The notes under the pieces are model-generated. The model saw nothing but the letters and a program-made list of their open reading frames with translations. It made no database searches and was not told where the DNA came from. From contig JAJRYZ010000222.1 in NCBI GenBank assembly GCA_024275515.1, positions 1-44,527 of the forward strand: DNA of 44,527 nt, in the 5' to 3' direction. Origin of the DNA: Spirochaetota bacterium (GTDB lineage: Bacteria; Spirochaetota; Spirochaetia; ARS1246). Positions 9,025 through 42,808 of the stretch are shown here, piece after piece; position 1 is the stretch's first letter, and every line of letters begins with the position of its first letter. Made by a program: the position numbers and the translations under genes.

Positions 9025-11580
9025 GTGGCCAGAGCGCCGATTCCAATCGTAGCGCTCCTCTTTCTCATCTCGCTCGTATCGTGCCTCAGTAACGACCGCG
9101 CGGACCGGCCGCTCGCGCAGGCCGATCCGCCTTCCGAAGTTCCGGTTTCACCGACCGCAGCACTGCCTGCCGATGTCGCCGCCGAAAAGGTGTCCGTCGG
9201 CGGAGAGGCGCAGGCCGAAGCGACCGCCGAGACCGAGGCCGAAGACCTGCAAGCGGGCGCCGCGTCACGAACGGCCGTGCGCTCGGCGGCAGGCTCGACT
9301 TCCACCGAAAGCGAAGCGGGAAACGAGGCGAAAGCGGCGGTCGAGACTCCGGCCGCCGCCGCTTTCGCTTCACCCGGCAACGTCGTTTCCTCATCCGACG
9401 GACTCTCGGACATCGACGTTACCGACGCCCTGCCGCCCGCCGTCGCCCGCGAGACCACCGCCACCGCCGGGGCGACCGAGCCCACCCAGCCCACCGCCAC
9501 CCCCGAGTCCGACCATACCGCCACAGCGACCAGGCCCACCGCCACCACCGAGTCCGACCACACCGCCGCAGCGACCACGCCGGCCGCGACCGCCGGGGCG
9601 GCCAGGCCCACCGCGACCGCCGGGGCGACCGAGCCCACCCAGCCCACCGCCACCCCCGAGTCCGACCACACCGCCACAGCGGCCATGCCCGCCGCCACAC
9701 CCGAGAGCGACCACACCGCCGTGCCCGAGTCCGCCGACACCGCCGCAGCGACCACGCCCGTCGAATCCGCCGGGAGCGCCGTTCGGCCGCCTGAGCCGGA
9801 CGACGCATCCGAATCGCCCCGCGAGCCGGAGGAGGAAGACGCTCGCGCAAGAACCGCGGCGACCGGGCCCGTCGATCCCGGCGGGATAGCCGAGCCCGGC
9901 GAGGTCACCGCCGCGGCTGCCGCCGCGGCGTCGAGGGAACCCGCCTCTCCGCCAAGCTCCCGCGGGCCGGCTTCATCCGATGCCTCCGGTGTCGAGTTAC
10001 GTCTTTCTGAAACGACGCCGGGAACGGAGGCGGCCGCCGGCTCGAAGTCCGCGCGGACGGATGAGCAAACGGTGTACGATGCATCGGAACTCGCTCCGAC
10101 GCCGAACGGCGATTCTCCCGACGGCGAAGAGAGCCGCGAAGCGGCGTCCGGCGAGGAAACGGCCGACGCGCCGGTAGACGAGTCGGCGACCGGCGCGAAG
10201 GCGAACGAAGAGGTAAGCACCGCGGCGGGAAGTGACGCGGTGCCGGAACCTGACGGATGGGCGCACGGGGACAGCGGCGGAGAGGCGAGCGGCGAAACGG
10301 GCGGAAAAGCGGACGAAACGGCGGACAAACCGGCCGGCGAGGAGACCGGTGAACCGTCGCGTCTCGCCGCGGCGACGGAGACGCAGACGGAGTCGGCAAA
10401 AAAAACGTCCGAGAGTTCGACCACCGAGCCCGCGCCGGCGGAGCCGACGGGGTCGACGGCCGAGCCGGGTCCGGCAGAGTCGACGGCCGAAAGGGCCGCG
10501 GCGGAACCTGCGCCGGAGCCGGCGGGCGGAAGGCCCGAACCTCTTTCGGTCGTCGAGATCGCGCGACGTCTCCGGCAAATGATGCCGGCCGGGATTTCGT
10601 TGATAGGACAGGGAAACGCGCCGCTTGCGATCTACCACGATTTCGACTCCGACGGATACGATGAGGTGTTTGTCCCGGCGGTCGAACGCGCGACCGACTC
10701 CGGTTTGATCGACGCCCGCGAGATAACCAATCAGACGCGACTCTACTCGCCGGAGACCGACGTGTTCGTCTTCCGTCTCTACGCTTTTTTCCAGCGCTGT
10801 GCCGATCTCGTCCTCTGGAGCGACGAACTGCTCGGCGCCTATCGGGTTCTCGAATCGTTCGAACTTGTCCGCATCGTCGCGGGGCGTCCCGACCCGGTGG
10901 CGGTGGTCGTAACCTTTATGACGTTGCAGGGCAGTGCGAGCGAGTGGGTCGTCTTTTCCGAATCGGCCATTTCTCGTCTTTCGCTTCGCAAGCGGATCGG
11001 CAGCCGGCCCGCCGTAGGCGACATAGACGGCGACGGAGTCATCGATATCGTGCTTTCGAACGAAAGCTTCGAGCCGGGAATCGGCTACGAAACCTACCTA
11101 TCGTGGCTCAAATGGACCGGAACAAGCTTCGAGCTGCACGACTCGGCAAATGTGGTCCGGTCGCTGCGGGAGTTTCTCGATGACGCGATCGAGGAGATCG
11201 AGCAGGGCCGTCTCGCTTCGTTTCTGCTCCGCGTCGGGTCCGATCCGGAGGACACGCCTACCGACGCGTCCGACACCGCGCTTCGCGACGAGGTATTCGG
11301 CGCCGTGTTTCATTTGGCCCCGTCACCCGCACATTTCACAAACCGCCCTCTTCCCCCCGACGCTCGAATCACGCGGATCGTCTATTCGCAGATCTTCGAA
11401 AACCCCTTTACCGGTATCGATTCGGACGGACGGTCCGTTTCGCGCGACGACTTTTTTCCGTTAACCGTCCGCGTCGAGACCGACGCGGGATCGGTCCATC
11501 TCTACACGGCGCGGGTGTTCATGGCGTCGAACCCGTTCCGTTCTCGTCGGTTTTTCTTCGGCCGGTACGGTCGGAGATGA
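9025..11580 (+). CDS. Putative lipoprotein with long Ala/Thr/Pro/Glu-rich repetitive region and C-terminal DxDxDG-loop (VCBS/FG-GAP-like) domain
   Basis: GTG start; lipobox LISLVSC; repeats TAGATEPTQPTATPESDHTATA; C-terminal DFDSDGYDE and DIDGDGVID. Confidence 0.75.
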   Translation: MARAPIPIVALLFLISLVSCLSNDRADRPLAQADPPSEVPVSPTAALPADVAAEKVSVGGEAQAEATAETEAEDLQAGAASRTAVRSAAGSTSTESEAGNEAKAAVETPAAAAFASPGNVVSSSDGLSDIDVTDALPPAVARETTATAGATEPTQPTATPESDHTATATRPTATTESDHTAAATTPAATAGAARPTATAGATEPTQPTATPESDHTATAAMPAATPESDHTAVPESADTAAATTPVESAGSAVRPPEPDDASESPREPEEEDARARTAATGPVDPGGIAEPGEVTAAAAAAASREPASPPSSRGPASSDASGVELRLSETTPGTEAAAGSKSARTDEQTVYDASELAPTPNGDSPDGEESREAASGEETADAPVDESATGAKANEEVSTAAGSDAVPEPDGWAHGDSGGEASGETGGKADETADKPAGEETGEPSRLAAATETQTESAKKTSESSTTEPAPAEPTGSTAEPGPAESTAERAAAEPAPEPAGGRPEPLSVVEIARRLRQMMPAGISLIGQGNAPLAIYHDFDSDGYDEVFVPAVERATDSGLIDAREITNQTRLYSPETDVFVFRLYAFFQRCADLVLWSDELLGAYRVLESFELVRIVAGRPDPVAVVVTFMTLQGSASEWVVFSESAISRLSLRKRIGSRPAVGDIDGDGVIDIVLSNESFEPGIGYETYLSWLKWTGTSFELHDSANVVRSLREFLDDAIEEIEQGRLASFLLRVGSDPEDTPTDASDTALRDEVFGAVFHLAPSPAHFTNRPLPPDARITRIVYSQIFENPFTGIDSDGRSVSRDDFFPLTVRVETDAGSVHLYTARVFMASNPFRSRRFFFGRYGRR
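9464..9683. repeat. Internal duplication, 153-bp offset, within lipoprotein gene
   Basis: CCGCCGGGGCGACCGAGCCCACCCAGCCCACCGCCACCCCCGAGTCCGACCA(T/C)ACCGCCACAGCG occurs near 9464 and again 153 bp (51 codons) later. Confidence 0.75.
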
Positions 11581-19486: not shown

Positions 19487-19593
19487 ATAGCCACCTGATT
19501 CTAACAGCTAAACTTAGCAAGGTCACTTCGATTTATCAAGGCGTTTATTCGATATCCGACGCCATTTGCGTGTCGACCGCTCCGCTCCCCTTG

Positions 19594-19631
19594 GGCAATT
19601 CCGAATTCGGCCGGCCACATTCGGAATTGCC
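19594..19631. repeat. Palindromic element E5
   Basis: GGCAATTCCGAAT ... ATTCGGAATTGCC: perfect 13-bp arms, 12-nt loop TCGGCCGGCCAC. Confidence 0.78.
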
Positions 19632-19683
19632 TCACGCAGTCGGCGTCCGTCGGTCAGAATCACGTACCGCCGGCGCCGTTCCG

Positions 19684-19721
19684 AGCAATTCGAAATCTGG
19701 TGTGTCAGATTTCGAATTGCT
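19684..19721. repeat. Palindromic element E6
   Basis: AGCAATTCGAAATCTG-GTGTGT-CAGATTTCGAATTGCT: perfect 16-bp arms. Confidence 0.85.
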
Positions 19722-19787
19722 GCTCCGTGCCGGCCGTGCTTGACCCGGCGATCCGATGCGCCGTAGAGTAGCACCGAGAGGTGCCCC

Positions 19788-32990: not shown

Positions 32991-33021
32991 ACCTTCGGCG
33001 CCCGCCGGCGCCTGCCGGTTC

Positions 33022-33091
33022 GGCGTGCGACGGGCGGCGGGCGGTGAACGGCGTGCGACGGGCGACGGGCGGTGAACGGCGGGCGGTGAAC
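33022..33091. repeat. Short tandem repeat 3' of proS (28 bp x2 plus a 14-bp partial)
   Basis: GGCGTGCGACGGGCGRCGGGCGGTGAAC twice, then GGCGGGCGGTGAAC. Confidence 0.8.
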
Positions 33092-35199: not shown

Positions 35200-35901
35200 C
35201 TATCGACCGCGAAAACCCAGCCGCCCGAGGGGTCCCCCACCGAACCGGTAGGTCTTCCCTTCTTCGTGCCGCTCGAGAGTCGAATAGATGAATGAGCTGA
35301 ATCCTTCCGGGTCGGCTTTGTACGATTCGAACGAATTGACGACGATCGGTTAGTTCCGGTAGACCGCCGACAACGATCCGGCGAGCGCGGAGAGAGCCGC
35401 CTGCATCGCCGAGGCGATCGAGGAGACCGGCCGCTCCTTCGGCGCATACCTGACGATTGATACGATTCGCGGCCTCTGACGCGCCGGCGCGCCGAGAAGC
35501 TCTTTGAGGAGAAGCGCCGGTCCTTTTATTCCCGAATCGATTTCGGCTTCGATCGCCGCCGGCGAACACGCGTGCAGCGGTTCCGTGCCTCCGTACTCCT
35601 CCTGTACGATAAGCGCCGAATCGATCCGCTCGAACTCGTTCAACGCCGTCAGTACCAGGTTGCGGCTCGAGATAAACGAGCGGGGATTCCAGGAGATTCT
35701 CAGTCGGCGCGCAGCGCCCTCTTCCTCCGGATGGTCGACGGGGGAAGAGGCCGTCGAGCGCGGCGAAGCGGCCGACCGATCCGCGGCGGCTTTCTCCGGG
35801 ACGCAGGCGCCGGCAATCACGGCGTAACCGGCGAGTACGAACCGCTCGAGCAGAGCGCAACCGAGACGACCGTCGGCCGGAGCGATAAGCACGTTGCTCA
35901 T
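35200..35901 (-). pseudogene. SDR-like protein interrupted by an in-frame TAA at 35350-35352
   Basis: Translation ...LSALAGSLSAVYRN*PIVVNSFESYKADPEGFSSFIYSTLERHEEGKTYRFGGGPLGRLGFRGR*; same frame continues 49 codons. Confidence 0.55.
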
Positions 35902-35964
35902 CAGGGCATACTACGAACCGCGACCGCGGTGGTCAACCGATACGAAATCGGCTATCGTTGGGCG

Positions 35965-37605
35965 ATGAGAATCGGGATTGGTCAGATCAATACGACGATC
36001 GGCGATTTTTCGGGAAACCGGCGTCGGATTCTCGATCTATGCGGTCGCGCCGTTGCCGACCGGGTCGATCTGGTGGTATTCCCCGAGATGAGTCTCTGCG
36101 GGTACCCGCCGAACGATCTTCTCGACCACGACGCCTTCGCCCGCGAAAGCCTTAAATCGCTTCGGCGGTTGCAGCGCGAGGCGCCGCGCGGGGTCGCGAT
36201 CGCGGTGGGATACGTCGACCGAAACCGGTCGGCCTCCGGCAAGCCGCTGCTCAACTCGGTGGCGGTCGTCCGCGACGGCGCGATCATTCACTCGCAGTCC
36301 AAGACGCTGCTTCCCACCTATGACGTATTCGACGAGGCGCGCTATTTCGAGCCGGCGTCGACGCGGACCGTGTTCGAACTCGGCGGCCGTAGAATAGGAA
36401 TCGCGGTGTGCGAGGACATCTGGTGGGAGACCGAATCCGCCCCCGGCACGCGCTATCCGCTCGATCCGGTGGGCGATCTGCTCGATGCCGGCGCCGAGCT
36501 GATTCTCGCCCCGTCGGCTTCACCCTACTTCGAGGGCAAGGTCGCGATTCGGGCGCGGCTGCTGTCGCGGATCGGCCGCTCGTCGGGCGCTCCGGTGGTA
36601 TACGTCAACATGGTCGGCGGCAACGACAGCCTTATCTTCGACGGGCAGTCGCTGGTCACCGACGCCGAGGGCAATCTGGTATATCGGGCCGCAGGATTCG
36701 AGGAGGCGTACGACGTTTTCGATACCGAGGCGCCGGCGCCGCTCGTTTCGATCGAAGTCGACCGGTACGAGGAGATTCGAAAGGCGCTGGTGCTGGGGAC
36801 TCGCGACTATCTGGCGAAGACGGGATTTTCATCGGTACATCTCGGCCTCTCCGGGGGCATCGACAGCGCGCTCGTCGCGACCCTCGCCGCCGAAGCTTTG
36901 GGGTCCGACAACGTGACGGCGTTCGGACTGCCTTCGCGCTACTCGTCGGAAGGCAGCGTAGCCGATGCGAAGCGGCTGTGTGAGAGTCTGGGAATTCGCT
37001 TTCGGCTGATGCCGATCGAGACGCCGTTCGCCGCCGTCCTCGAGACGCTCGCTCCACATTTCGACGGCGCCGAACCCGACATTACCGAAGAGAACTTGCA
37101 GGCGCGGATCCGGGGAATGTTGTTGATGGCGTATTCGAATAAGACCGGTTCGCTGGTTCTGGCCACGGGAAATAAATCCGAGCTCGCCGTCGGGTACTGC
37201 ACGCTGTACGGCGATATGTGCGGGAGCCTTGCGGTGATCGGCGACCTGTTCAAGACCGACGTTTACGGGTTGTGCCGTCACATCAACGGCGACCGCGAGA
37301 TTATCCCCGAGTCGATTCTGACCAAACCACCTTCCGCGGAGCTCCGCCCCGATCAGAAGGATGCCGACTCGCTCCCTCCCTACGAGGTGCTCGACGAGGT
37401 GCTCGAACGATATCTTCTCGCCAACCGCACCGGCGCGGAGATCGAAGCCGAAGGGTTCGATGCGACTTTGGTGCGTCGGGTGCTGACGCTGGTCGGGCGC
37501 GCCGAGTATAAGCGTCGACAGGCGCCTCCCGTGCTCAAGGTATCGCCGCGGGCATTCGGTACCGGACGACGGATGCCGATCGCCCGGCGAATCTACGAAG
37601 CGTGA
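35965..37605 (+). CDS. nadE: Glutamine-dependent NAD+ synthetase
   Basis: N-terminal nitrilase domain (VVFPEMSLCGYPPNDLL, IGIAVCEDIWWE), C-terminal HLGLSGGIDSALVATLAAEALG, LVLATGNKSELAVGYCTLYGDMCG. Confidence 0.96.
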   Translation: MRIGIGQINTTIGDFSGNRRRILDLCGRAVADRVDLVVFPEMSLCGYPPNDLLDHDAFARESLKSLRRLQREAPRGVAIAVGYVDRNRSASGKPLLNSVAVVRDGAIIHSQSKTLLPTYDVFDEARYFEPASTRTVFELGGRRIGIAVCEDIWWETESAPGTRYPLDPVGDLLDAGAELILAPSASPYFEGKVAIRARLLSRIGRSSGAPVVYVNMVGGNDSLIFDGQSLVTDAEGNLVYRAAGFEEAYDVFDTEAPAPLVSIEVDRYEEIRKALVLGTRDYLAKTGFSSVHLGLSGGIDSALVATLAAEALGSDNVTAFGLPSRYSSEGSVADAKRLCESLGIRFRLMPIETPFAAVLETLAPHFDGAEPDITEENLQARIRGMLLMAYSNKTGSLVLATGNKSELAVGYCTLYGDMCGSLAVIGDLFKTDVYGLCRHINGDREIIPESILTKPPSAELRPDQKDADSLPPYEVLDEVLERYLLANRTGAEIEAEGFDATLVRRVLTLVGRAEYKRRQAPPVLKVSPRAFGTGRRMPIARRIYEA

Positions 37606-37612
37606 GACGCCG

Positions 37613-37653
37613 AGCGATTCCGAATCCGGCTCGCCGCATCATTCGGAATCGCT
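37613..37653. repeat. Palindromic element E7
   Basis: AGCGATTCCGAAT ... ATTCGGAATCGCT: perfect 13-bp arms, 15-nt loop. Confidence 0.8.
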
Positions 37654-37696
37654 TCGAAGCGCACCGTGCGGTTGCGGCGTGAGACGCCGGCGTGCT

Positions 37697-37724
37697 ATTA
37701 TTGAATGAACGTTCATTCAATAAT
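37697..37724. promoter_or_regulatory. TetR-type operator, perfect 28-bp palindrome
   Basis: ATTATTGAATGAACGTTCATTCAATAAT is exactly self-complementary and ends 13 bp before the tetR ATG. Confidence 0.88.
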
Positions 37725-37737
37725 GAAGGATACGTCA

Positions 37738-38334
37738 ATGGCTCGACGACCCGACGGTGCGAAACGCGCGAAAATCATCGAAGCGGCGAGGACGACCTTC
37801 GGCGAGAACGGGTACCGACGCACCACGGTTAAGCAGATTGCCGCCGCCGCGGGCATCGCTCCCGGCACGCTCTATACCTACTTCGCAAACAAAGAGGATC
37901 TTTTCTCCGAAGCCGTCGGGGAAATCTGGCGTCGCTTTATTACCGGGATGCAGAGCATTTCGGTCGGCCGGGGCGCCTTCCTGGAAAAGCTCGTTGCGTT
38001 TATAGATTTCGGTTTCGACCTGATCGAAGAGATTCACCCGCTCCTGCGGGGTATGTTCTCCGAGGCGAATCGGAGAGAGCTCCTGATCGAGCGGGTGGAG
38101 GAGGTGTGCGAGTTTATCGGCGGGTTCTTCGACGACTCTCTCAGTAAGGGCGTTCTGTTTGGGTCGACGAGCAACGAAGAGCTTCGTCGTTTCAACCTTC
38201 GGATGATCGTTTCGGGAATCCTCTTCCGCGCCGCCCTGGCGCCTCCGAACGCGTTGCGCGCCGAGTTCGAATCGATAAGACGCGGGCTTGTCCTCGGGAT
38301 TAACGAACGTATGTCGGTCCGCGGGCGGTCGTAA
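37738..38334 (+). CDS. TetR/AcrR-family transcriptional regulator
   Basis: AKIIEAARTTFGENGYRRTTVKQIAAAAGIAPGTLYTYFANKEDLFSE. Confidence 0.94.
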   Translation: MARRPDGAKRAKIIEAARTTFGENGYRRTTVKQIAAAAGIAPGTLYTYFANKEDLFSEAVGEIWRRFITGMQSISVGRGAFLEKLVAFIDFGFDLIEEIHPLLRGMFSEANRRELLIERVEEVCEFIGGFFDDSLSKGVLFGSTSNEELRRFNLRMIVSGILFRAALAPPNALRAEFESIRRGLVLGINERMSVRGRS

Positions 38335-38343
38335 GGAAAGCGA

Positions 38344-39615
38344 GTGAAACGCAGGGTACTGATCGTTCCTTTGCTCGTTGCGTTCGTGCTTCTGGTCGTT
38401 GCGGGGGTGATCAGGCGACTCGATTCTCCCGAGGCCGTCGAGGAGCGCGTCGAAGGCGTCGTCGTGGTGATCGGTGCGGTCGAGCGAAGAAACATCGAAG
38501 AGATTCTCCGGTATCCGGGGACCTTAACGCCGCGGCAAACGGTAACCGTCGTTCCAAAAGTCGCCGGCCGGGTCGAGACTATTCATGTTTCCGAAGGCGA
38601 GCGCGTCGCGCCGGGTCGGTTGCTCATCTCGCTCGATTCGCAATCGATCGAGCTTCAGGCCGATCAGGCGTACTCCGCGTGGCAGGCGGCGCTCGCCCAG
38701 TACCGGAAAGCCGAACGGGGGGTCCGCGAGGGCGAGCTTGAAAACGCGAGGGCGAGCTACGCACAGGCGCGCGACGACCTCGAAGCGGCGCGGCGCGACC
38801 TCGAGCGTTCGAAGCGGCTCTACGAGGCGGGAACGATCGCCCGGGCGAAGTACGAGGAGGCCGAAGCGGCGTTTCGTTCGGCGAGCACCGCCGTGGAAAA
38901 CGCGAAGCGCTCTCTTGAAATGATGGAAGAGGGCGCGACGAGCGAAGAACTCGATTCGGCGAAGGCGAACGCCGAAGCGCTCAAGGCGCGGTACGATCTG
39001 GCAGAGCTGCAGATCGCCGAAACCCGGATTACCGCGTCCTCGTACGGAACGGTCGCGAGTATCATGGTCGACGCGGGGAACATGGTCGCGCAGGGGACGC
39101 CGCTCATCGCGATCGTCGGCGAGGACCCGATCTACGCGCAGGTGGCGATCCCCGAAAAGTACTACGGCCGGTTCGTCGACGCGAAGCGAAGGATCGCGGC
39201 AAGGGTCTACCCGACGGCGTACGGGACGGAGCGGCCCTACGCCGGCTTCGTCGAGCGCGTCTCGCCGTTGATCGATCCGCAGAGCAGGACATTTACCGTC
39301 GAGATCGCGCTCCCGAACCCGTCGGGTCGGCTCAAGCCCGGGATGTACGTCAATACCGATATCATCATCGACATACGCGAGAACGCGCTCGTCGTGCCCG
39401 AATCGGCCGTCGTGCGACGAGACGACCGCGACGTGTTGTTCGCCGTACGGGAGGGCGCCTCGGCGCACGCAACCATGATCGAGATCGATCCGGGGCTTCG
39501 AAGCGGAGGGTATGTGGAGATTCGGTCCGGACTTGTCGGGGACGAACCGATTATCGTCGAAGGAAACGCCTTCCTCGAAGACGGGCAACCGGTAAGAGTC
39601 GTTACCGTCGAATGA
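38344..39615 (+). CDS. RND efflux periplasmic adaptor (membrane fusion protein)
   Basis: TVVPKVAGRVETIHVSEGERVAPGRLLISLD, coiled coil, ITASSYGTVASIMVDAGNMVAQGTPLIAIV. Confidence 0.93.
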   Translation: MKRRVLIVPLLVAFVLLVVAGVIRRLDSPEAVEERVEGVVVVIGAVERRNIEEILRYPGTLTPRQTVTVVPKVAGRVETIHVSEGERVAPGRLLISLDSQSIELQADQAYSAWQAALAQYRKAERGVREGELENARASYAQARDDLEAARRDLERSKRLYEAGTIARAKYEEAEAAFRSASTAVENAKRSLEMMEEGATSEELDSAKANAEALKARYDLAELQIAETRITASSYGTVASIMVDAGNMVAQGTPLIAIVGEDPIYAQVAIPEKYYGRFVDAKRRIAARVYPTAYGTERPYAGFVERVSPLIDPQSRTFTVEIALPNPSGRLKPGMYVNTDIIIDIRENALVVPESAVVRRDDRDVLFAVREGASAHATMIEIDPGLRSGGYVEIRSGLVGDEPIIVEGNAFLEDGQPVRVVTVE

Positions 39616-39628
39616 AAACCGCGGAAGG

Positions 39629-42600
39629 ATGAAGATAACCAATCTTTCGATCCGTCATCCTATTACGACTCTTATGGCTTTTGCGGGTCTTTTCCTCCTG
39701 GGCGTGGTCTCGCTGAGCCGTCTGGCGCTCGATCTGTTTCCCGACGTGTCGATGCCGACGCTCGCGGTTTTTACCGCCTATCCGGGCGTCGGGCCGTACG
39801 AAGTCGAGTCGGGTGTGACCAAGCCGATCGAAGAGGCTCTGACCTCGGTCAACGGGATCGAACGGATATCATCGACTTCGGCCGAAGGCGTTTCGATGAT
39901 CGTCGCGAACTTTGCCTGGTCGAAAGATATGGACGCCGCGGTGGCGGACGTCCGCGAGGCGATAAACGCGATCGAGGACTCGCTTCCCGAGGGCGCCGAG
40001 CGTTCGGGGATCTACAAGTTCAATCCTCAACTTCTGCCGTCCTTGGTATTCAACGTCTACACCGAGACTAAAGGCATCGACGTCCGCCATCTGGCCGAGA
40101 AAAAAATCGTTCCGGCGCTTGAAAAAGTCGAAGGCGTCGGCCGCGCGGACGTTTTCGGCGGATCGATCAAGGCGGTCATGTGTCGGCTCGATCTTGACGA
40201 GATAGGCAAACGCGAGATTCCGATATCGCAGGTCCTGCGGGCGTTTCAGGGGGAGAACATCGATCTTCCCGGCGGAGCGATCACCGCAGGCGATCGATAC
40301 TTGATCGTCCGGACGATGGGAGAGTTCGATTCGATCGAGGACGTCGGCTATGTTCTCCTCGGATATCGCAACTCGGTTCCGGTTCTGCTGCGCGACGTCG
40401 CGCGGATCACTCTCGACACGGCTCGGCAGGAGGAGTTTGTCCGCGCCGGAGGGGCCGACGGCATTACCATCGCGATCCGACGGCAACCCGGGCACAACAC
40501 GGTCGTGGTCAACGACGCGGTCAAAGAGGTCCTCGAAGCGATAAGACCGACGCTCCCCGAATCGATACGCGTCGAGATTACCACCGATCAGTCGGTCTCG
40601 ATTATCCGTTCGATCGGTGGCGTGGCGAATTCCGCCTGGCAAGGCGGGTTGCTCGCGGTATTCGTCCTGCTCTTCTTTCTCCGCAACGTTCGCTCGACGC
40701 TCATCATCGCGACCGTGATTCCTGTATCGGTAGTGGCCACATTCTCGCTGATGGATTTCGGCGGACTGACGATGAATATGGTCTCCTTGATGGGAATCAC
40801 CCTCGGGGTAGGGATGTTCGTCGACAACTCGATCGTTGTTCTCGAATCGAGCTATCGTAAACAACTCGCCGGGCTCTCGCCCGCCGAGGCGGCGCGGGAG
40901 GGAACCGCCGAGGTGGGAAAGCCGATTATCGCGTCGACCTTGACGACGGTGGCGGTGTTCATTCCGATGCTTTTCGTCCAGGGCATCGCCGGGCTCATCT
41001 TCGACGATCTTTCGCTGACCGTCGCCTTCGCGCTACTCGTTTCGCTCGCCGTCGCGCTGACGCTGATTCCGCTGCTTTCCGCGAAGCTGCTCAAGCTCGA
41101 AGGAGTCCGGATCGCCCTTCCCGCTTCCGTCGACGAGGGGCATCGTGAGCTCTCGCTTGCCGACATCGATGTTCGGACGGGGAACCGGTTCCTCGACCGG
41201 ATCTCGTCGGGAATCCGCGCGTTGCTTTCGCGTATGGACGACGCCTACGAGGTGATCGTCGGCCGGGCCCTTGACCACGCGGTGCTCGTCGTGGTGAGCG
41301 CGGTGGCGTTGCTCGGGCTTAGCCTCGCTTCGATTCTGCTTCTCGGAATGGAGTTTTTGCCCGAGTCCGACGAGGGGCGATTCGAGATTTATGTCGAGAC
41401 GAGAGTCGGCAATTCCTACGAGGCGACCACGCGAAAAGTCGCCGAAATGGAGCGAATAGTCGCCGAGATCGCCGGAAGCGATCTCGTGTCGATCACCTCC
41501 GAGATCGGGCGAGGGGGAAACGCCATCGAAGCGGGGGCGGTCGGGAGCAATCTTGCCGCCGTCGGCGTCAATCTGACCGACAAGGACGATCGCGACCGTT
41601 CGGTCTGGCGAATCCTCAACGAGCTTGATCGGGCCTTTTCCGAGCGGCTCGTCGACGTGAAGTACCGGATGAGCGTCCAGAGCGTCGCGTCTCTCGCCGT
41701 CTCGGCGAGCGGCGCCGGCGAGCCGATTGTGGTAGAGCTGCGGAGCAACGACCTCGACAAACTTTACGCCTACGCGCGGCGGATCGAGTCGATCATGAGT
41801 CGCGTCGACGGGATACGAAACATCAGAGTTTCGCATACCGTTGGGAAGCCGGAGCTTCAGTTTCGAATCAAACGCAGGGAGGCGCTCTCTCTCGGGATAA
41901 GCCCGTTCGAAATAGCGACGACGGTCCGCGCCGCGTATATGGGAACGACGGTAACCAGATACGCCGCGTTCGACGAAAGCTACGACGTGGTGGTGACGCT
42001 TCGAGAGGAGGACCGGACTCCCGAACGTTTTGCGTCCCTGTTCTTTATCAACCCCGCCGGCGTGCGGATCCCGCTCGAGAACCTGGTGGAGATAGTGGAA
42101 GGCGCCGGTCCGGTGGCGATACGAAGACTCGATCGAACCCGGGTCATTTCGGTGACCGCCGCGCTGACGGGCGACCGAGCGCTCAACCGCGTCATGGCCG
42201 ATCTTCGCGCGAAGGTCGAAGCCGACGGCCCCGCGCCGGTCGGAATCGAACGGACGTACACCGGCGCGAGCGAGGAAATGGCCGCCGGCTACGGAAGCCT
42301 TCTGCTTGCGCTGTTGTTCGCCGTGGCGTTGGTGTACATGGTCATGGCGTCTCAGTTCGAGTCGCTGCTGCATCCGTTCATCGTCATGTTCTCGGTTCCC
42401 TTCGCGATCATAGGGCTCGTCGCGGCGCTTCTGATCACCAACACCACTTTCAGCTTGCTCGCTTTCGTGGGGGGGATTCTCCTGGTCGGAATCGTCGTAA
42501 ACAACGGGATCGTCCTTATCGACTATATGAATATGCTCCGTTCGCGGGGCGTTCCGGTCCGAAGGGCGATCATTCAGGGCGGAAAGACGCGGCTCAAGCC

Positions 42601-42808
42601 GATCCTAATGACTACGCTTACGACGATTCTTGCGTTGTTACCCATGTCTCTCGGTTTGGGGACCGGTTCGGAGATTCGGGCGCCGATGGGTCGGGCGGTG
42701 GTCGGAGGGCTTGCGACCTCGACGATGGTTACCCTCGTGCTTATTCCCGTCATCTATTGGATCGTCGAGACCAAGATAAAGAAACCTCAAGGAGGGATGC
42801 GAACATGA
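39629..42808 (+). CDS. RND efflux transporter, AcrB/HAE1-like
   Basis: LSIRHPITTLMAFAGLFLLGVVSLSRLALDLFPDVSMPTLAVFTAYPGVGPYEVESGVTKPIEEALTSVNGIERISS; VDNSIVVLESSYR; 1059 aa. Confidence 0.96.
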   Translation: MKITNLSIRHPITTLMAFAGLFLLGVVSLSRLALDLFPDVSMPTLAVFTAYPGVGPYEVESGVTKPIEEALTSVNGIERISSTSAEGVSMIVANFAWSKDMDAAVADVREAINAIEDSLPEGAERSGIYKFNPQLLPSLVFNVYTETKGIDVRHLAEKKIVPALEKVEGVGRADVFGGSIKAVMCRLDLDEIGKREIPISQVLRAFQGENIDLPGGAITAGDRYLIVRTMGEFDSIEDVGYVLLGYRNSVPVLLRDVARITLDTARQEEFVRAGGADGITIAIRRQPGHNTVVVNDAVKEVLEAIRPTLPESIRVEITTDQSVSIIRSIGGVANSAWQGGLLAVFVLLFFLRNVRSTLIIATVIPVSVVATFSLMDFGGLTMNMVSLMGITLGVGMFVDNSIVVLESSYRKQLAGLSPAEAAREGTAEVGKPIIASTLTTVAVFIPMLFVQGIAGLIFDDLSLTVAFALLVSLAVALTLIPLLSAKLLKLEGVRIALPASVDEGHRELSLADIDVRTGNRFLDRISSGIRALLSRMDDAYEVIVGRALDHAVLVVVSAVALLGLSLASILLLGMEFLPESDEGRFEIYVETRVGNSYEATTRKVAEMERIVAEIAGSDLVSITSEIGRGGNAIEAGAVGSNLAAVGVNLTDKDDRDRSVWRILNELDRAFSERLVDVKYRMSVQSVASLAVSASGAGEPIVVELRSNDLDKLYAYARRIESIMSRVDGIRNIRVSHTVGKPELQFRIKRREALSLGISPFEIATTVRAAYMGTTVTRYAAFDESYDVVVTLREEDRTPERFASLFFINPAGVRIPLENLVEIVEGAGPVAIRRLDRTRVISVTAALTGDRALNRVMADLRAKVEADGPAPVGIERTYTGASEEMAAGYGSLLLALLFAVALVYMVMASQFESLLHPFIVMFSVPFAIIGLVAALLITNTTFSLLAFVGGILLVGIVVNNGIVLIDYMNMLRSRGVPVRRAIIQGGKTRLKPILMTTLTTILALLPMSLGLGTGSEIRAPMGRAVVGGLATSTMVTLVLIPVIYWIVETKIKKPQGGMRT

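Follow-up and report, generated by a model that had tools for sequence, protein, structure and literature searches.

The DNA stretch analysed here (the window, 44,527 bp of a spirochaete draft genome) contains a hairpin, E7, immediately downstream of nadE, which we interpret, with a probability of about 55%, as the diverged relic of a palindromic MITE that now forms a hairpin after this gene, the 13-bp direct repeat bracketing it being coincidental or secondary. Taken alone, the 13-bp repeat is of minor importance. The palindromes numbered in the initial annotation of the window belong to a MITE family of two sizes with clean 9-bp duplications, and the flush 9-bp footprint provides a criterion for telling transposed palindromes of this genome from others; E7 is judged by it below. 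To our knowledge, the 40-bp form of the family, consisting almost entirely of terminal repeat, is among the shortest units with such a footprint.

An arm-pattern search of the genome identified 39 palindromes, typically GCAATTCGAAATCYGGCGCGCCRGATTTCGAATTGC, and 55 when up to three mismatches were allowed. The short form of the family is 40 bp in length and reads GA-palindrome-TG. The long form, 151–153 bp in length and present in at least about 40 copies, begins with the same palindrome, continues with CGCCCATAGCAACCGAAAAGACGCCGTTTTCGTGG... and terminates with ATTTCGAATTGCTG; the whole 40-bp-type palindrome thus starts the 152-bp form, which thereby harbors three end-like sequences. Both forms are bounded by 9-bp direct repeats flush with their GA...TG ends. 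Among 53 stretches, 19 show flush duplications matching at 9/9 positions and a further 12 match at 8/9, compared with at least 8/9 in 0.2% of re-paired flanks used as control. Perfect duplications surround copies of the 40-bp form (L126, L138, L140, L141, L148, L150, L013 and L017) as well as the 152-bp form (L130, L131, L135, L139, L144, L011, L012, L015, L020, L021 and L023). The initial annotation was therefore right in its wider idea that palindromes of this type duplicate their target, and the flanking duplications whose absence at other copies it had named as a refutation are present there. The footprint is 9 bp, and the 10–15 bp suggested for it does not hold, the longest chance-extended repeat across the 19 perfect cases being 11 bp, i.e., at most two extra bases. 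In addition, ~600 kb of the genome was scanned independently for terminal-repeat pairs of any kind flanked by flush 9-mers, yielding convincing lengths of 40 bp, 151–153 bp and one of 176 bp. A 152-bp-type copy of 176 bp (L007:1499–1674) possesses a 25-bp insertion (with GGACATATGTCC) in its right terminal repeat, with the target duplication intact.

The family shows the general features of MITEs, being non-coding and multicopy with terminal inverted repeats and target duplications, and the 40/152-bp palindromes of this genome constitute a non-autonomous MITE family. It is lineage-specific, and searches of 296 further genomes from the class and of viral contigs did not recover its palindrome. 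Genome-wide, 14 arm changes are paired and 20 are one-sided. Paired changes are far commoner than independent mutation would give, suggesting that something keeps the arms complementary, either hairpin-templated correction or selection. A second palindrome type, TTCTCGATATGG...CCRTATCGAGAA, is located at 303–336 of the window and at L140:540–570, and in L140 a 40-bp MITE is inserted beside it.

At the junction in question, all features lie on the + strand. The gene nadE (35572–37605) encodes an NAD+ synthetase with an amidase domain (Pfam PF02540, NAD_synthase, and PF00795, CN_hydrolase) and ends with the stop codon TGA at 37603–37605. E7 (GAGCGATTCCGAAT-CCGGCTCGCCGCATC-ATTCGGAATCGCTT) occupies 37612–37654. 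Its inverted repeat is perfect (13/13), with arms at 37613–37625 and 37641–37653 separated by a 15-nt loop. The start at 37613 given in the initial annotation, directly after the first repeat copy, agrees with the perfect arm; the left end defined by the family boundaries, the GA at 37612–37613, lies one base earlier and overlaps the repeat by that base. Read as GA...TT, E7 has an alignment score of 33 against the family, which none of 1000 shuffled palindromes reaches (null maximum, 26). It contains the GAGCRATTCGAAAT terminal repeats within a near-perfect palindrome that define the family, with the paired double change of CGAAAT to CCGAAT, and carries three paired arm changes (positions 3, 8 and 9). 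The palindrome and its end dinucleotides together measure 43 bp, which fits a decayed 40-bp form, whereas a unit bounded by the repeat would measure 68 bp. A second palindrome of the CCGAAT type at 19593–19632 of the window scores 32 (null maximum of 18 among 1000 shuffled palindromes), and CCGAAT replaces the CGAAAT of the family on both arms only in these two palindromes genome-wide. A standard 40-bp element with a target duplication of 7/9 is located 50 bp from the palindrome at 19593–19632, at 19683–19722.

The 13-bp repeat GCGTGAGACGCCG was correctly described as a perfect repeat around E7, with the first copy across the nadE stop. Both copies are exact. Copy 1 (37600–37612) covers the stop TGA and the first base of E7, copy 2 (37677–37689) is situated upstream of the putative tetR operator, and these two copies, 77 bp apart from start to start, are the sole occurrences in the 4.2-Mb draft genome searched. 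The partly palindromic character ascribed to the repeat (CGGCGT-GAG-ACGCCG) applies to copy 2, which is enclosed by this sequence at 37675–37689. It does not apply to copy 1, which is preceded by AA and reads AAGCGTGAGACGCCG, with a stem of 4 bp.

The background frequency of such repeats was estimated from 348 kb of the genome together with the window. When 43-bp segments of the window were drawn at random, 0.3% were bracketed by a repeat of 13 bp or longer within their 60-bp flanks, and at 0.037% of points the 13-mer holding the flush 9-mer was found again 38–173 bp further downstream. Counting tandem arrays, the 348-kb sample contains about two perfect direct repeats of 13 bp or longer, spaced 14–120 bp, for every 44.5 kb; the window itself contains 16 of them, most in two repetitive stretches. 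Overlapping direct repeats are clustered at 9489–9663 (spacings of 45 and 108 bp) and at 33021–33085 (14, 28 and 42 bp) of the window. The bracketing repeat is unusual for one chosen palindrome, and less so given that about seven palindromes were looked at in the initial annotation.

The family rule places the left target site of E7 at the 9-mer TGAGACGCC (37603–37611), which is located entirely within the 13-bp repeat. The right site expected for a 40-bp-type element, CGAAGCGCA (37655–37663), matches it at 5/9 positions, and a match of at least 5/9 arises in ~6.5% of shuffled pairings; E7 thus lacks the flush 9-bp duplication of the family. The second, exact TGAGACGCC is found at 37680–37688, 25 bp past E7 on the right, following a tail (37655–37679) that contains no terminal inverted repeat and occurs once in the genome. 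The proposal that the repeat represents a duplicated target site therefore stands in part: E7 resembles a target-duplicating family and the left flush 9-mer falls within the repeat, but the right copy lies 22–25 bp beyond E7. It is possible, at a probability clearly below that of the relic, that E7 and the tail (37612–37679, 68 bp) entered TGAGACGCC together, as a single variant element, with the standard 9-bp duplication, in which case chance would account for the four additional identities (GCG on the left, G on the right) and the right terminal repeat would have been lost or altered. In line with such an insertion, TGAGACGCC directly abuts the left end defined by the family and has an exact second copy, the low background of flush 13-mer recurrence applies, and L007 shows a family element with 25 bp added close to the right end and the flush duplication retained. 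Moreover, in other family copies the flush 9-mer recurs exactly downstream only at true target-duplication positions, and the enclosure of the left flush 9-mer of E7 within the repeat counts against a relic accompanied by a coincidental repeat. On the other side, no right terminal repeat above background is present at the end of the 68-bp unit, where the anchored score of 7–8 is reached by ~10–25% of random sequences when one register is considered and by 37% when five are. The initially proposed unit of about 64 bp (37613–37676; 68 bp by the family boundaries) has no second copy in the genome at 64–68 bp, and no element near 68 bp is found among the lengths measured (40, 151–153 and one of 176 bp), so that this unit is not upheld. 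The four-base extension by chance has an estimated probability near 2% and exceeds the maximum of two seen in the 19 perfect cases, and it would be odd for the repeat to be perfect when the element next to it has diverged strongly. The weights given to this reading and to the relic are a matter of judgement and were not computed. It is doubtful that E7 and its tail represent a third, 68-bp size class of the mobile palindrome family, inserted across the nadE stop. On this reading, the insertion would have placed new sequence upstream of tetR, and the 68-bp class would join a family in which even the shortest unit, the 40-bp perfect hairpin, transposes alone with a 9-bp duplication.

Two further explanations carry less weight. 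E7 might be an ordinary hairpin of the nadE 3' end, independent of the MITE family and accompanied by the repeat by chance, which we regard as unlikely. Its position 7 nt past the nadE stop and its lack of a family target duplication would agree with this, as would the location of the sole other CCGAAT-type palindrome (19593–19632), which likewise follows an open-frame stop codon without a gap. However, the similarity of both CCGAAT-type hairpins to the family, loop included, exceeds that of 1000 shuffled palindromes, no U-tract follows E7, and no Pfam domain matches the open frame that ends at 19632. A structure-dependent duplication, in which a small stem-loop target (GCGT-GAG-ACGC) was duplicated over more than 9 bp, is highly improbable. 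Each repeat copy does form a small hairpin, weak for copy 1, and such modes have been published: the target duplications of YPAL/RU-2 can be longer than 9 bp, ranging from 3 to 26 bp at dyads (PMC2229807), and a structure-dependent target route has been modelled for IS1272-like elements (PMC5678879). In addition, an insertion sequence (IS) of this genome has GAGCAATTC at its ends in common with the MITE. Against this, the 9-bp duplications of the family show no such variation, and E7 would be a single case.

In the favored reading as a relic, E7 would be a copy of this spirochaete lineage's 40-bp palindromic MITE that inserted long ago and has since diverged. Intact members carry GAGCRATTCGAAAT-type ends, and their insertion duplicates 9 bp of target directly abutting each end; a DDE transposase provided in trans presumably mobilises them. 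The E7 copy would have inserted just past the nadE stop codon, and its own target duplication (5/9) would since have decayed beyond recognition, while the paired changes from CGAAAT to CCGAAT on both arms would have kept the stem perfectly complementary. Because the stem is still complementary, the hairpin can form in the nadE 3' end, and its region has a predicted folding energy of −27.3 kcal/mol (z −3.7). The hairpin may there end or protect the nadE transcript, with a possible role in 3'-end formation or in nadE mRNA stability. The features of an intrinsic terminator are incomplete at E7, where the strong hairpin is followed by TTCGAAGCG with no U-run, and the terminator scan reports none. 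The 13-bp repeat would be a separate feature, arising by coincidence or by a small local duplication, perhaps through slippage beside the hairpin, and would not be an intact scar left when a 64-bp element inserted.

A candidate source of the transposase is the IS at L215:1295–3147 (contig C37), which we take to be of the IS1182 type. It encodes a 528-aa DDE_Tnp_1 transposase, and its ends begin with GAGCAATTC and GGGCAATTC, like those of the MITE. A target duplication was not detected at this IS, and its end sequence departs from the MITE after nine bases. Judged from its ends, it is a possible lead to the MITE transposase, or possibly an insertion inside such a palindrome. The transposase search covered DDE_Tnp_1 and Transposase_mut, and no IS256-type transposase was found in this genome. 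No autonomous element with MITE ends was detected in ~600 kb of the genome. One look-alike, a terminal-repeat pair 1.35 kb apart (C136:19173–20541), was rejected; the largest frame between the repeats is not recognisably a transposase and may encode a uroporphyrinogen-decarboxylase-type protein.

The family shares features with several known systems. MITEAba12 of Acinetobacter, 113 bp long and A+T-rich, with ends GGCTTTGTTGCACAAA, a known parent IS and 9-bp target duplications (PMC6382973), is likewise non-autonomous and present in many copies, with short terminal inverted repeats, 9-bp duplications and some copies devoid of a recognisable duplication. The family described here differs from it in its sizes of 40 and 152 bp, its ends GAGCAATTCGAAAT and its short form, which is nearly all one palindrome. 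REP/BIME sequences, associated with REP-associated tyrosine transposases (PMC2817692), resemble it as palindromes of 20–40 bp dispersed in one genome. Fixed target duplications are not part of the definition of REPs, whereas the present family has clean 9-bp duplications and, by this criterion, is not a REP family. YPAL/RU-2 is similar in being a palindromic repeat of ~150–170 bp with target duplications and long inverted repeats; the YPAL duplications are variable (PMC2229807), whereas those observed here are fixed at 9 bp. For the IS1182/IS1272 group (PMC5678879), the resemblance to the MITE lies in the C37 IS, whose ends start with the letters of the MITE ends (GAGCAATTC and GGGCAATTC).

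Downstream of E7, the tail and repeat copy 2 stand just upstream of a 28-bp perfect palindrome, ATTATTGAATGAACGTTCATTCAATAAT (37697–37724), which is the probable operator of the TetR-family regulator encoded at 37738–38334 (Pfam PF00440, TetR_N). The nearest NadE relatives (64%, 58% and 53% identical) have other genes after nadE, and the nadE–tetR junction is kept in none of them. No known RNA family was found at the junction, and the promoter scan detected no strong sigma-70 promoter there; TTGCGG-18-TATTAT (37672–37701) is a weak guess for a promoter. Within 37697–42808 of the window, the ATTATTGAATGAACGTTCATTCAATAAT palindrome and the tetR gene are followed by HlyD-type and AcrB-type genes, and this region is probably a self-regulated efflux operon.
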